A DNA stretch of 64,000 nt from Pseudorhodobacter turbinis (lineage in GTDB: Bacteria > Pseudomonadota > Alphaproteobacteria > Rhodobacterales > Rhodobacteraceae), in assembly GCF_005234135.1 (NCBI RefSeq), contig NZ_CP039964.1, forward strand, positions 1,927,001 to 1,991,000, in the 5' to 3' direction. Below, one piece after another: positions 24,485 to 29,642 of this stretch. The notes under the pieces were generated by a model, which was given only the letters and a program-made list of their open reading frames with translations, had not been told where the DNA came from and ran no database searches. The translations under genes and the position numbers were made by a program. The first letter of the stretch is position 1. Every line of letters starts with the position of its first letter.

Positions 24485-24525
24485 ATCTATGTGATCACTA
24501 TACAGCATTTTGTGATCACATAGAT
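24485..24525. promoter_or_regulatory. sdhC: Paired GTGATCAC operator in a 14-bp inverted repeat upstream of sdhC
   Basis: ATCTATGTGATCAC (24485-24498) and its exact reverse complement GTGATCACATAGAT (24512-24525) are separated by 13 bases. Each arm contains the palindrome GTGATCAC; the two centres are 21 bp apart, two helical turns. They lie 150-190 bases upstream of the sdhC start. The same arrangement recurs upstream of sucC. Inferred to be the operator of a dimeric or tetrameric regulator of TCA genes; the protein is unknown. Confidence 0.75.
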
Positions 24526-24624
24526 GGCAGCTCTTTTTGGCGATACGGCCCCATTTTGTACCTTTGGGAAAATGTGAGCGCCTTGAGGGGCGCAAAGTTT
24601 CCGGTCGCCTCAGCGGCTTGAAGG

Positions 24625-24664
24625 AAGCTAGCGCGGGTTTGTGATCACAAACCTGCGCTAGCTT
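24625..24664. promoter_or_regulatory. 40-bp palindrome centred on GTGATCAC between mch and sdhC
   Basis: AAGCTAGCGCGGGTTTGTGA (24625-24644) is followed directly by its reverse complement with one mismatch (24645-24664); the centre is TTTGTGATCACAAA. It lies 24 bases after the mch stop and about 290 bases upstream of sdhC. As DNA it is a third copy of the operator seen at sdhC and sucC; as RNA it would be a 20-bp stem with almost no loop and could terminate or protect the mch transcript. There is no run of T after it on the minus strand, which favours the operator reading. Confidence 0.65.
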
Positions 24665-24687
24665 GAGGCCTTTGACTGTGACAGCGA

Positions 24688-25716
24688 TCAGGTCGGGATC
24701 AGTGCCCAGTAGTCAAGATCCAGCAGGACGGACGGATCGTATTTCCCGTCCTCACCGCGCAGGGCAAAGGGGGCGGCACCATGTTTGACCGCGACAAGGC
24801 GCAGGCGGATGGCACCGACACCGGGGGCAGAGGTCTCGGCCTTGTCGAGCACCTCTGACCACGCCCGCACCGTATCGCCTGCAAAGCAGGGGTTGGCATG
24901 GGCACCCGCATTCAGCGCCACGATCATCTGCGCATTGGCCAAACCGTTGAACGAAAGCGCCCGCGCCAGCGAGATCACATGACCGCCATAAATCAGGCGA
25001 CGGCCATCCTCGCGGTTGGTGGCGTCGAAATGGACCTTGGCGGTGTTCTGCCACAGGCGGGTGGCCAGCATATGCTCGGCTTCTTCCACCGTGACGCCGT
25101 CGATATGATCGATCTGTTCGCCAATGGCATAGTCGCCCCAGCGATGCGGCTCTCCGGCCAAGGTGAAATCATAATCGCTGAAATCCAGCCCCTCGGGGAC
25201 CACCAAACGGTCAGGGGTGACGATCTTGGGCAGGTCGGGGATCACGGTTTCGGGGGCGGCTGTGTCGCGGTTCTTGCGCACCATCACCCAGCGGACATAT
25301 TCCAGAACCGCCTCGCCGCGTTGGTTGATCCCGCGTGTGCGCACATAAACAACACCGGATTTCCCGTTGGAGTTTTGTTTCAACCCGATGACCTGCGATT
25401 CCGACCGCAACGTATCCCCCGGATAGACCGGCGCCAGCCAGCGCCCGTCGCCATAGCCAAGGTTAGCCACGGCATTCAGCGAAATATCGGGAACGGTTTT
25501 GCCAAAAACGGTGTGGAAGGCGATCAGATCATCCAGTGGTGACCCTTCCAGCCCGCAAGCCCCCGCGAAATCATCCGAGGAATAAAGCGCATGGCGGGCG
25601 GGATAAAGCGCGTGGTAAAGCGCACGCTCACCCTCGGCCAAGGTGCGGGGGACGGCATGTTGGATCACCTCACCCAAAGTGTAATCTTCGAAAAAACGGC
25701 CGGGATTGGTTTTCAT
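24688..25716 (-). CDS. mch: Mesaconyl-CoA hydratase (beta-methylmalyl-CoA dehydratase)
   Basis: Hydratase of the ethylmalonyl-CoA pathway, interconverting mesaconyl-CoA and beta-methylmalyl-CoA. A 342-residue tandem MaoC/hotdog protein: the first domain contains the start FFEDYTLGEVIQHAVPRTLAEGE and LYPARHALYSSDDFA, and the second has DYAIGEQIDHIDGVTVEEAEHMLATRLWQNTAKVHFD. It is the last gene of mcl2-nnrU-DUF1737-mch, which puts two enzymes of the same pathway in one unit, and ecm and ccr lie 14-17 kb away in the same window. Confidence 0.93.
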   Translation of the reverse strand: MKTNPGRFFEDYTLGEVIQHAVPRTLAEGERALYHALYPARHALYSSDDFAGACGLEGSPLDDLIAFHTVFGKTVPDISLNAVANLGYGDGRWLAPVYPGDTLRSESQVIGLKQNSNGKSGVVYVRTRGINQRGEAVLEYVRWVMVRKNRDTAAPETVIPDLPKIVTPDRLVVPEGLDFSDYDFTLAGEPHRWGDYAIGEQIDHIDGVTVEEAEHMLATRLWQNTAKVHFDATNREDGRRLIYGGHVISLARALSFNGLANAQMIVALNAGAHANPCFAGDTVRAWSEVLDKAETSAPGVGAIRLRLVAVKHGAAPFALRGEDGKYDPSVLLDLDYWALIPT

Positions 25717-25740
25717 GGCATCGGTCCTTGGCAGCGAGGG

Positions 25741-25944
25741 TCAGTGTTGGCCCAGTTTGATGTCGGGTGAATAGGTGCCGGGGGCGTCCTTGATCACGGC
25801 CTGCCCACAGCGCATCACACCCTTGGCCGCATCCCATGCATAGGTGGGGGAACCGTGCAGCTCCCAGCCCTTGTTCAGCGCGTCGGTCACTTTGTGGCAA
25901 AAAGCCGAGGTGTCTTCTTCGGTCAGTAGGCGGTAAAGTTTCAT
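25741..25944 (-). CDS. DUF1737 domain protein
   Basis: A 67-residue protein, MKLYRLLTEEDTSAFCHKV, then NKGWELHGSPTYAWD, the WELHGSP stretch being characteristic of DUF1737. Starting at ATG 25944 it sits four bases after the nnrU stop. No function is known; position between nnrU and mch suggests only co-transcription. Confidence 0.85.
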   Translation of the reverse strand: MKLYRLLTEEDTSAFCHKVTDALNKGWELHGSPTYAWDAAKGVMRCGQAVIKDAPGTYSPDIKLGQH

Positions 25945-25948
25945 GGGA

Positions 25949-27546: not shown

Positions 27547-27714
27547 ATGAAAGATAAACTTTTTGCGCTCTCATTCGGGTTTGCCGCGCTGATCCTTTTC
27601 ACCAAGGCGCATGCGCAGCCGTTTGACACAGGTCAGCAGGCTGCCTGCTATGCCACGGCGACCCAGAGCATCCGTAGCGACAGCAGCAGCAAGGCCCATA
27701 GCACCAAGGTATAA
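27547..27714 (+). pseudogene. Secreted small protein, 5' remnant running into tauE antisense
   Basis: ATG 27547 with AAAGGGG before it begins MKDKLFALSFGFAALILF followed by TKAHAQP, a clear signal peptide with an AHA-Q cleavage site. After about 20 further codons the frame enters the 3' end of tauE on the opposite strand and stops at 27714, giving 55 residues. In relatives I recall a roughly 110-residue secreted protein with a near-identical start, so this seems to be a gene cut off by a rearrangement at about 27640. Alternatively a tiny secreted peptide. Confidence 0.45.
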
Positions 27715-28388
27715 AACAGTTTTTCTGGAAGGATCCGCACCAGCCGCACACCGGCGAACACCGCCAGCGTGGCCGGAGCGATCAGCCAGACAGCGATCGC
27801 CAGATTGTCAAACTGTAATATCCCGATAGACCAATAGGCAGGCAGTTTCACAGTATTCACCCAAGTGAACAACAAGGTGGACGTGCCTGCAAAAACCGCC
27901 TTTGGCATCCGCAACGGCACTGCGTAAATCTGGTAGGGCGGGCCGCCCGCGTGGCTGACAAAGCTGGTAAAGCCGGCGGCGGCCCCCCAAAACACGCCCG
28001 GCAGAACCTTGGGGCGTTTTGCCTCGGAATGTGCGCCCCTGCCCAGTAGGCGGCTGATGGCAAAGCTACTGCCCACAAGGCCGATCACCCCGCCGACCAT
28101 CGCCTCGGATACCAGACTGGCCGTGGCCCAGCCGATACCAACGCCAATGGCCGTTGCGGGGATCATGATCTTGAGCACGCTCAAGTCATAGGCGCGCCGG
28201 TAGGCCCAAACACCGAACCAGTCCGATACAATATAGATTGGCAAAAGCAGCCCAGCTGCCTGCATTGGCGGCATGGCCAGCGATAGAATCGGCACGGACA
28301 TCATGGCAATCACGGGCAAACCGCCCTTGGAAAGCCCGACCGCAACCGACGCCAACACGGCCGCCGCCCAAAAGCCAAACCCTTCCAT
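27648..28388 (-). CDS. TauE/SafE family membrane exporter
   Basis: A 246-residue inner-membrane protein of the sulfite exporter TauE/SafE family, thought to move sulfonates, sulfite or other anions. About seven to eight hydrophobic segments are visible ([36 protein letters not shown], the C-terminal [20 protein letters not shown]). The loop [20 protein letters not shown] carries the family's second GxxxGF-like repeat. The start is placed at ATG 28388 behind AAAGGGACGG; the frame upstream of that is not membrane-like. It is divergent from mdh; no sulfur genes are near, so the substrate is unknown. Confidence 0.85.
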
Positions 28389-28542
28389 ATCCGTCCCTTT
28401 GCTATTCTGCCGCAGCTTTAGCGCAAACAGTGCGGCGTGCAACAGCGCAAAGGGCAGGGCAACTGTGCTGTGCCCTTGCCTAATGCGCCTCAAGGGTCTA
28501 CGCATCGCGCATTCAAATCAACCCGACCCGGAGATTGAAATC

Positions 28543-29505
28543 ATGGCCAGACCCAAGATTGCACTTATCGGCGCGGGGCAGATTGGCGGAACACTCGCCC
28601 ATCTCGCCGCGATCAAGGAATTGGGCGATATCGTCCTGTTCGATATTGCTGAAGGCACCCCGCAGGGCAAAGCGCTGGATATCGCGCAATCCGGCCCTTC
28701 CGAGGGCTTCGATGCCGTGATGAAAGGCGCCAATGACTACGCCGACATCGCAGGCGCGGATGTCTGCATCGTCACCGCAGGTGTTGCTCGCAAACCCGGC
28801 ATGAGCCGCGATGACCTGCTGGGCATCAACCTCAAGGTTATGAAATCCGTGGGCGAAGGCATTGCCAAGCACGCGCCGAATGCGTTCGTGATTTGCATCA
28901 CCAACCCGTTGGACGCGATGGTTTGGGCCTTGCGCGAGTTTTCGGGCATGCCGCACAACAAGATCGTCGGCATGGCCGGCGTTTTGGACAGCGCGCGTTT
29001 CCGCCACTTCCTTTCGGTGGAATTCAACTGTTCCATGCGCGATGTGACGGCCTTTGTTTTGGGCGGCCATGGCGACACGATGGTGCCTTTGGCGCGTTAC
29101 TCGACCGTTGGCGGCATCCCGCTGCCTGACTTGGTTGAGATGGGCTGGACTACGCAGGATAAACTGGATGCGATCATCCAGCGGACCCGTGATGGTGGTG
29201 CGGAAATCGTTGGCCTGTTGAAAACCGGCTCCGCTTTCTATGCACCTGCGACCTCGGCGATCGAGATGGCCGAAGCCTACCTCAAAGACCAAAAGCGTAT
29301 GCTGCCATGTGCGGCCTATTGCGACGGTGAGCTGGGCGTGAAGGGCATGTATGTTGGCGTTCCAACCATCATCGGCGCTGGCGGCATTGAACGCATCGCC
29401 GACATCAAGATGAATGCGGCAGAGCAGGCGATGTTCGACAAGTCGGTAGCTGCTGTGCAGGGCTTGGTTGCGGCCTGTAAAGAAATCGATCCATCACTGG
29501 CCTAA
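28543..29505 (+). CDS. mdh: Malate dehydrogenase
   Basis: NAD-dependent TCA enzyme converting malate to oxaloacetate. A 320-residue LDH-like MDH with Rossmann motif [12 protein letters not shown], the substrate Arg region [31 protein letters not shown], and catalytic His in [12 protein letters not shown]. Initiation is at ATG 28543, where the family start [12 protein letters not shown] begins; the reading frame is open well upstream but overlaps tauE. A strong terminator follows at 29527, so it is probably transcribed alone. Confidence 0.98.
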
Positions 29506-29526
29506 GGCCTGTTTTGATCGCGTTTT

Positions 29527-29557
29527 AGGGGGCGCCCTTTTGGGGCGCCCTTTTTTT
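29527..29557 (+). terminator. Rho-independent terminator after mdh
   Basis: GGGCGCCC (29530-29537), loop TTTTG, GGGCGCCC (29543-29550), then seven T. It lies about 20 bases after the mdh stop codon and separates mdh from the sucC promoter. Confidence 0.9.
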
Positions 29558-29613
29558 GTTTCGCGTCCGGTTGTGGCGCTGCGAATCACTTTGAAATCCG
29601 ACGGGCGGTGTTT

Positions 29614-29642
29614 GTGATCACACGTTTCGGGGCTGTGATCAC
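29614..29642. promoter_or_regulatory. sucC: Paired GTGATCAC operator upstream of sucC
   Basis: Two copies of GTGATCAC, at 29614-29621 and 29635-29642, each inside a longer TTTGTGATCACA or TGTGATCACAAA context, with centres 21 bp apart, exactly as upstream of sdhC. They lie about 105-135 bases before the sucC start. A common regulator of sdh and suc operons is inferred. Confidence 0.75.

Follow-up and report, generated by a model that had tools for sequence, protein, structure and literature searches.

Paired sites upstream of sdhC and sucC

The window – the whole 64,000-nt stretch of the Pseudorhodobacter turbinis genome analysed here – carries an sdh operon on the reverse strand, a suc operon that also encodes the 2-oxoglutarate dehydrogenase components on the forward strand and, ~7 kb from the paired sites described below, a gene for a GntR-family regulator whose longest open reading frame begins at 17468 (Table 1).

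Table 1. Coordinates within the window of the genes, palindromic sites and predicted promoter features
Feature	Position	Strand	Basis
FCD-GntR regulator, probable AkgR ortholog	17513..18178	+	Pfam GntR and FCD; co-occurrence with pair; GTGATCAC before gene in 12/30 ortholog loci
sdhA (longest ORF, family match from residue 50)	21755..23680	-	TIGR01816
sdhD	23568..23939	-	TIGR02968, just above cut-off
sdhC, first gene of sdh operon	23951..24337	-	TIGR02970, above cut-off
Predicted sdhC -10 element TATGCA, 16-bp spacer	24404..24409	-	Conserved promoter motif
Predicted sdhC -35 element GTGACT, 59 bp after pair	24426..24431	-	Conserved GTGAC motif
GTGATCAC, sdhC pair, promoter-proximal half	24491..24498	.	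Exact pair genome-wide only here and at 29614
GTGATCAC, sdhC pair, promoter-distal half	24512..24519	.	21 bp from first half
Additional GTGATCAC before sdhC, in the middle of a long inverted repeat	24641..24648	.	Hairpin z-score -5.5
Terminator-like hairpin after mdh	29527..29553	+	Region has 8 such sites vs 7.0 by chance
GTGATCAC, sucC pair, promoter-distal half	29614..29621	.	Sequence scan, genome-wide pair search
GTGATCAC, sucC pair, promoter-proximal half	29635..29642	.	Sequence scan, genome-wide pair search
Predicted suc-operon core promoter region, 38 bp after pair	29681..29718	+	Conserved motif, Gibbs sampling; weaker than sdhC motif
sucC, first gene of suc operon	29748..30941	+	PRK00696, above cut-off
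sucD	31413..32297	+	PRK05678
sucA, 2-oxoglutarate dehydrogenase E1	32393..35353	+	PRK09404
sucB, E2 component	35359..36861	+	PRK05704

A preliminary description of this DNA reported four copies of GTGATCAC, arranged as one pair before sdhC and one before sucC with centres 21 bp apart in each. We recovered all four copies at the coordinates it gave, and the spacing holds for both pairs. In total the window contains six copies of GTGATCAC against 0.91 expected – a count reached in none of 100 shuffles. The two copies absent from that description are a single copy at 13945, distant from TCA genes, and one at 24641, which may serve as an auxiliary operator or belong to a terminator. A third copy situated 63–161 bp upstream of the sdhC pair is present in seven of nine genomes of the genus, our own included.

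Across the whole 4.25-Mb genome, exact GTGATCAC pairs with a gap of 5–25 bp occur at just the sdhC and sucC places, with ~0.02 expected by chance under uniform base frequencies and none in the reversed control. When up to three mismatches were allowed at fixed spacing, 58 genome places were counted by sequence alone, gene context aside (reversed control, 3). These include the two exact pairs, none with one mismatch and ten with two.

Conservation of the pair and of a GntR gene

With one genome sampled per genus, 133 of the family's 149 genomes contain the exact pair, and the reversed control gave 0 in every row. All 90 family pairs that we fetched (47 genomes, 12/13-bp gap, a subset of all pairs in all genomes) precede a TCA operon: 43 lie before sdhC, 46 at the suc operon (45 before sucC and one between mdh and a sucA-like start) and one before fumC. 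The preliminary description had staked its proposal on conservation in relatives and on a location in promoters as opposed to gene interiors. It withstood both checks: the 90 fetched pairs all sit in promoters, and among named relatives, window included, a 20- or 21-bp pair was found before sdhC in 51 of 59 readable regions and before sucC in 71 of 71 (81 in all, 80 loci plus the window). The eight sdhC regions of named relatives without a pair hold a single copy (5) or none (3).

Thirteen genomes gave 3–5 pair matches. A search at gap 11–15 left two places each in 11 of them, and we therefore rejected a wider regulon; the exceptions are G042, with a third pair at fumC, and G135, with a triple site. 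In the wider class, 7 of 289 genomes carry an exact pair at gap 12–14, four of these in the family. The others are G162, where the pair is near an alpha/beta-hydrolase-like gene, G295 and G350. A search of 152 class genomes for the GntR protein at E < 1e-40 returned our own genome, one family member and one other genome at 44% identity.

Within the family, the pair is accompanied by an ortholog of the window's GntR gene (at least 50% identity, E < 1e-55): both are present in 130 of the 149 genomes, neither in 13, and six are discordant. The ortholog thus occurs in 130/133 pair-bearing against 3/16 pair-less genomes (Fisher p 2e-13, uncorrected for kinship) and, with a completeness of 90% or more required, in 118/120 against 1/12. 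The sole such pair-less genome with an ortholog, G040, has a 15/16 match to the pair before sucC. The ortholog was not detected in three pair-bearing genomes (G019, G096 and G114). Their assemblies consist of 50–320 contigs, and G096 is 77% complete.

We also observed GTGATCAC at the GntR gene itself. Among the best-scoring 30 ortholog loci of 149, own included, 12 carry a copy placed 16–70 nt ahead of the codon that aligns with Met24 of the window gene; the 109 kb of these loci contain a single copy elsewhere. In 11 of the 12 site-bearing loci the single copy stands 8–9 nt before an ATG. No copy is near the GntR gene in the window, as the preliminary description had remarked, and 17 further loci among the 30 likewise lack one. 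That description had further proposed that one regulator serves both pairs and had suspected the FCD-GntR gene at 17513. Co-occurrence and the sites at the GntR gene in 12 of 30 loci support the first idea and indicate that the second is very probably right.

Relation to AkgR and other known regulators

Published text on Rhodobacter sphaeroides names GTGATCAC among the AkgR sites, and one paper describes AkgR as a transcriptional activator. In the same species RSP_0981, a GntR protein, is a predicted regulator of sdh, sucCD and alpha-ketoglutarate dehydrogenase (PMC4344238). The motif, the GntR family and the target operons sdh and suc are shared with the window, and R. sphaeroides locus numbers imply the order mdh–sdh–GntR, also as in the window. 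Going by gene order, we take RSP_0981 to be AkgR and the window's GntR gene to be its probable ortholog. Consistent with an AkgR regulon, the operators in the window contain GTGATCAC, a GntR-family regulator is conserved with them, and 89 of the 90 fetched family pairs are at sdh or suc. Because the AkgR motif and the RSP_0981 prediction for sdh and suc are both in print, the system is already known and the window is probably an orthologous instance of it. What differs is the genome and the arrangement – two sites kept strictly at 20/21-bp spacing, whose distance to the sdhC promoter changes by helical turns. Such whole-turn stepping was not met in the portions of AkgR-related literature covered. 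Among literature matches to the bare 8-mer GTGATCAC, those listed are, judged by their titles, unrelated.

The window protein has the N-terminal GntR helix-turn-helix (PF00392) and C-terminal FCD domain (PF07729) of the FCD group, each scoring above its gathering threshold. The group is known chiefly for its repressors. PS417_07240, a gntR-like protein of Pseudomonas simiae, is 32% identical to AkgR according to its paper, and the palindrome GTGATCAC has likewise been proposed as its site; there, however, the palindrome lies just before the regulator's own gene, and the genes controlled are those of deoxyribonate catabolism instead of the TCA cycle. A tetrameric FCD-GntR of the VanR group, Atu1419 of Agrobacterium fabrum, has the same two domains, and one short palindrome can be bound by each of its dimers, but its ATGTATACAT sites lie 190 bp apart and looping repression is proposed (PMC7797058). 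Atu1419 reads DNA with Arg45, the residue that opens its recognition helix (PMC7797058); AkgR orthologs have Met there. The base-reading Arg is absent from our set, with Met70 in 30 of 30 orthologs; this equivalence is deduced from spacing, and Arg at the position is not a defining feature of the FCD group.

CceR, a LacI-family regulator of R. sphaeroides and Paracoccus, also controls central carbon metabolism with overlapping targets (e.g., sdh in R. sphaeroides), but it belongs to another family and its published motif, GTT-N6-8-AAC, differs, so we rejected it as the binder. A CRP/FNR-type regulator was rejected because GTGATCAC does not consist of two half-sites with a spacer between them. 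The words 'motif' and 'consensus' are both absent from the main text, as available, of a RedB/FnrL paper.

Promoter phasing and the proposed control

Predicted promoters at sdhC and the suc operon were defined by conserved motifs; a generic sigma-70 scan found neither. For sucC, the Gibbs-sampling motif superseded a first search that had picked a different region at most loci. The hairpin after mdh would separate mdh from the suc promoter, though it is weak evidence by itself because such sites are about as frequent in the region as chance predicts (Table 1).

The sdhC promoters were scored with a matrix built from set 1, one of the two sets it was applied to, using GTGAC copies that follow the pair by 40 bp or more. 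The phasing analysis left out promoters scoring 10 or less – 4/51 in set 1 (L016, L020, L071 and L085; distances 67, 37, 59 and 68) and 9/42 in set 2 (distances 94, 9, 160, 72, 48, 39, 57, 60 and 58) – plus one duplicate (L217). The two sets may have species in common, represented by non-identical sequences. Over the 80 scored promoters, the pair is 47–80 bp upstream of the predicted -35 element, a position that is usual for an activator and unusual for a simple repressor. This distance moves in whole DNA turns (about 48, 58, 70 and 79 bp), with 79 of 80 promoters within 2 bp of whole 10.5-bp steps from 58.5. Because 66 of the 80 distances share one mode, the step pattern rests on the other 14 loci, which come from at most about 8 lineages. 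The pair distance gave R 0.83 in set 1 and R 0.87 in set 2, against R 0.25 (p 0.02, weakly non-uniform) and R 0.05, respectively, for the control distance from -35 to ATG. At sucC, 10 of 45 second-set loci were off the grid, every one scoring below 11. The whole-turn steps at sdhC fit an activator that stays on a single side of the helix, turned to RNA polymerase; together with the position of the sites they fit activation by AkgR, short of proof.

We consider it highly probable that each pair is a double operator for AkgR, encoded at 17513–18178, from which the protein most likely switches on the sdh and sucCD/alpha-ketoglutarate dehydrogenase operons jointly. One AkgR dimer would occupy each GTGATCAC and, since 21 bp corresponds to two helical turns, the two dimers would sit on one DNA face, usually 57–60 bp upstream of the sdhC -35 element and about one turn nearer the promoter at suc. 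We infer that a metabolite signal governs AkgR. More tentatively, and with rather less than even confidence, we suggest that the control unit may be an obligatory two-dimer (or tetrameric) activator platform, as opposed to a single operator, that would have to face the promoter in whole turns. Its 16 bases and 20/21-bp spacing are nearly frozen across the family, and in most genomes it would serve just the two operons leading from alpha-ketoglutarate to fumarate, so AkgR may be a dedicated switch for that half of the TCA cycle, coming and going with its sites.

It is unlikely, if conceivable, that AkgR binds the pair as a repressor or dual regulator, with the steps reflecting DNA bending or looping and not RNA polymerase contact. 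Looping between two palindromes has been proposed for repression by Atu1419 (PMC7797058), the third GTGATCAC upstream of sdhC is a possible looping partner, and the sites just before the ATG of akgR would suit autorepression; the published description of AkgR as an activator and the location of all 80 scored pairs upstream of the -35 element argue for activation instead. Activation by AkgR is also favoured over a still less probable reading, in which the pair is bound by some other regulator, with the GntR gene merely a co-inherited companion. In favour of that reading, three pair-bearing genomes gave no GntR ortholog, and of 43 genomes only 21 have the gene within 25 kb of a pair on one contig. 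Yet co-occurrence persists where the two are at least 80 kb apart on one contig (e.g., G035, G039, G127 and G137), GTGATCAC recurs at the GntR gene, and AkgR is the protein named for this motif in print. We rejected as scarcely credible an mRNA hairpin, attenuator or RNA control element – the two palindrome copies can pair mutually, and in the window the inverted repeat at the sdhC pair reaches 14 bp – given that outer/inner flank complementarity across relatives is mostly near column-frequency expectation (largest excess, at one sucC outer position, 29 vs 19.1), that the stretch from pair to start codon contains conserved promoter motifs, and that a search of 23500–30500 gave no Rfam match at or above the gathering score.

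Most Rhodobacteraceae genomes examined retain the paired-site arrangement at sdh and suc. Our analyses connect a regulator that is in print, though little studied, with a precise promoter architecture across a large family of marine, soil and phototrophic bacteria. The apparent smallness of the regulon and strictness of the site make this a clean system for asking how bacteria set alpha-ketoglutarate-to-fumarate flux – and how an FCD-GntR protein would activate from two helically phased sites.

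Paired sites upstream of TCA-cycle operons

The palindromic 8-mer GTGATCAC occurs six times in the window, against 0.91 expected. The preliminary description had reported two pairs of copies upstream of sdhC and sucC with the same spacing, and direct location in the sequence confirmed both the positions and the spacing. Exact pairs with a gap of 5–25 bp occur at just these two places in the 4,246,983-base genome of P. turbinis, which holds no third exact pair; a reversed control gave 0. At the fixed spacing with up to three mismatches there are 58 places including both exact ones (control 3), and the next-best matches carry two mismatches. 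A lone copy elsewhere in the window is probably a chance occurrence.

Features of the window and their coordinates
Feature	Position	Remarks
Lone GTGATCAC	13945–13952	Remote from TCA genes in the window
FCD-GntR gene	17468/17513–18178	GntR HTH and FCD domain
Motif before sdhC	GTGACT 24431–24426; TATGCA 24409–24404	Predicted promoter
GTGATCAC pair before sdhC	24491–24498; 24512–24519	154–182 bp from start codon; sdhC on minus strand
Inverted repeat	24625–24664	Arms of 20 bp with a single mismatch (by eye); centred on GTGATCAC at 24641
GTGATCAC pair before sucC	29614–29621; 29635–29642	106–134 bp from sucC

Exact pairs (gap 5–25 bp) were found in 133 of 149 Rhodobacteraceae genomes (one per genus, P. 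turbinis included), mostly two in each, with a control of 0 throughout. The proposal of a shared operator called for conservation before both operons in relatives, and this is what we found in the readable upstream regions of 80 loci around mdh and the window: centres are 20 or 21 bp apart before sucC in 71/71 (21 bp in 69, 20 bp in 2) and before sdhC in 51/59 (21 bp in 43, 20 bp in 8), one sdhC spacing (L072) having first been scored as 33 bp owing to a third copy there. The other eight sdhC regions have a single copy (five) or none (three). Where the operons have swapped places relative to mdh (loci L074 and L076), the pair moves with them. All nine Pseudorhodobacter genomes, including our own, carry the pair before sdhC.

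Alignment of relatives gives an extended element, TTT-GTGATCAC-A-N11-T-GTGATCAC-AAA, with an A/T-rich centre that is clearest at suc. Because outer and inner flanks differ, the dyad belongs to the pair as a whole. Three copies in register, 21 bp apart, precede sucC in L077 (17679–17728), L093 (14654–14703) and L288 (genome G135). Upstream of the sdhC pair, seven of the nine Pseudorhodobacter genomes have a further copy; that of the window centres an inverted repeat flanked by a MaoC-like gene on one side and the sdh promoter on the other, and that of L301 lies within a hairpin whose arm sequence differs.

We fetched 90 family pairs (gap 12/13 bp, 47 genomes) without regard to genes. Of these, 43 precede sdhC and 45 sucC; one (L274) follows the end of mdh and precedes a start weakly matching the 2-oxoglutarate dehydrogenase E1 N-terminus (E 2.6e-7, 98 residues), and one (L229, read from overlapping L195, 1501–1529) is found 125 bp upstream of a gene for class II fumarase (match to TIGR00979 above cut-off). 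All 90 therefore precede a TCA-cycle operon, which answers the question of whether pairs favour promoters over gene interiors; none of the 90 precedes mdh, acn, icd or gltA. The pair at the fumarase gene (fumC, whose product catalyses the following TCA step) is the third in its genome, G042.

Co-occurrence with a GntR-family regulator

Orthologs of the FCD-GntR gene (≥50% identity, E < 1e-55) were sought in the same 149 genomes and found in 130/133 pair-bearing versus 3/16 pair-less genomes (Fisher p 2e-13, uncorrected for kinship). The three pair-less genomes with an ortholog are G040, in which a pair carrying a single mismatch precedes sucC, and G147 and G122 (73 and 76% complete), in which a close sucC was not found. 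G019, G096 and G114 have the pair with no ortholog detected. Twelve of the 13 genomes that have neither pair nor ortholog contain a close sucC, and their best upstream pair within 230 bp matches 8–13 of 16 letters; for the other, G021, the sucC search gave just a 52% homolog. Ortholog and sucC sites are both absent from G004, G008, G014, G017, G029, G048, G054, G059, G083, G101, G102 and G109.

In 21/43 genomes, gene and pair share a contig and are no more than 25 kb apart (contig ends disregarded). In at least four of the others (G035, G039, G127 and G137) the two share a contig at least 80 kb apart, which argues that the co-occurrence is more than mere linkage. Among 152 genomes of the class, no comparable ortholog was found outside the family (the matches being our own genome, one family member and then a 44% match).

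In 12 of the best-scoring 30 of 149 ortholog loci, a single GTGATCAC lies 16–70 nt upstream of the codon that aligns with Met24 of the window gene (with one copy in the remainder of the 109 kb covered), and in 11 of those 12 it stands 8–9 nt before an ATG. The window gene itself has no copy nearby, as had been remarked. Asp226 is present in all 30 orthologs, near the site where many FCD domains carry a last metal-binding His. All 30 also have Met at the position equated by spacing with Arg45, the residue with which the FCD-GntR protein Atu1419 reads a guanine (PMC7797058).

Phasing between pair and predicted promoter

A conserved GTGAC(A/T)-N16-TA motif between the pair and the sdhC start codon is the predicted sdhC promoter. 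In 80 promoters scoring above 10 (47/51 from named relatives and the window, set 1; 33/42 non-duplicate from loci around the fetched pairs, set 2), the pair-to-GTGAC distance is 47–48 bp (n=7), 57–61 bp (n=66), 69–70 bp (n=4) or 78–80 bp (n=3), and 79/80 deviate by no more than 2 bp from a whole number of 10.5-bp steps. The 14 off-mode loci represent at most about eight lineages; six of the loci are from Paracoccus and two from Sulfitobacter. R for the clustering is 0.83 in set 1 and 0.87 in set 2, helped by the single large mode. The control distance, GTGAC-to-ATG (55–138 in set 1, 56–106 in set 2), clusters at 10.5 bp weakly (R 0.25, p 0.02; set 1) or not at all (R 0.05; set 2).

The sucC motif is weaker. 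It starts 38–40 bp after the pair in 66/71 loci and 29 bp after it in three; in the other two, which have triple sites, it lies 60–61 bp from the first pair, equivalent to 39–40 from the last site. A refit gave 38–40 in 63, 28–31 in six, 41 in one and 75 in one. In the second set (n=45), 28 fall at 38–40 and seven at 28–29 (several low-scoring), and 10 are off-grid, each scoring under 11.

A probable AkgR regulon

A constant rotational phase at variable distance fits a bound activator that would contact RNA polymerase, and the 21-bp spacing suggests that two dimers would share one face of the DNA. A repressor at the observed distance, or a hairpin, would need no such constant phase. A dimer of dimers is known for an FCD-GntR protein (PMC7797058). 

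In Rhodobacter sphaeroides a GntR-family protein, RSP_0981, is predicted to regulate sdh, sucCD and alpha-ketoglutarate dehydrogenase (PMC4344238), and the locus numbers there imply the order mdh–sdh–GntR that is also seen in the window. We take RSP_0981 to be the GntR-family regulator AkgR, which fits. Another study, which calls AkgR of R. sphaeroides a transcriptional activator and names this palindrome for it, gives 32% identity between AkgR and the gntR-like regulator described there. The excerpts of related literature compared, a set lying outside the primary AkgR paper, contain no description of the paired spacing.

The proposal that one regulator stands behind both pairs was right in substance, given the co-occurrence of ortholog and pair. 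Judging from sequence comparison, we consider it highly likely that the pairs are double operators through which AkgR activates sdh and suc, our confidence being slightly lowered by the weak clustering of the control distance in set 1. What we describe in the window is very probably a further genome's copy of the AkgR regulon, and its new elements, as far as checked, are the strictness of the double site and the phasing of that site.
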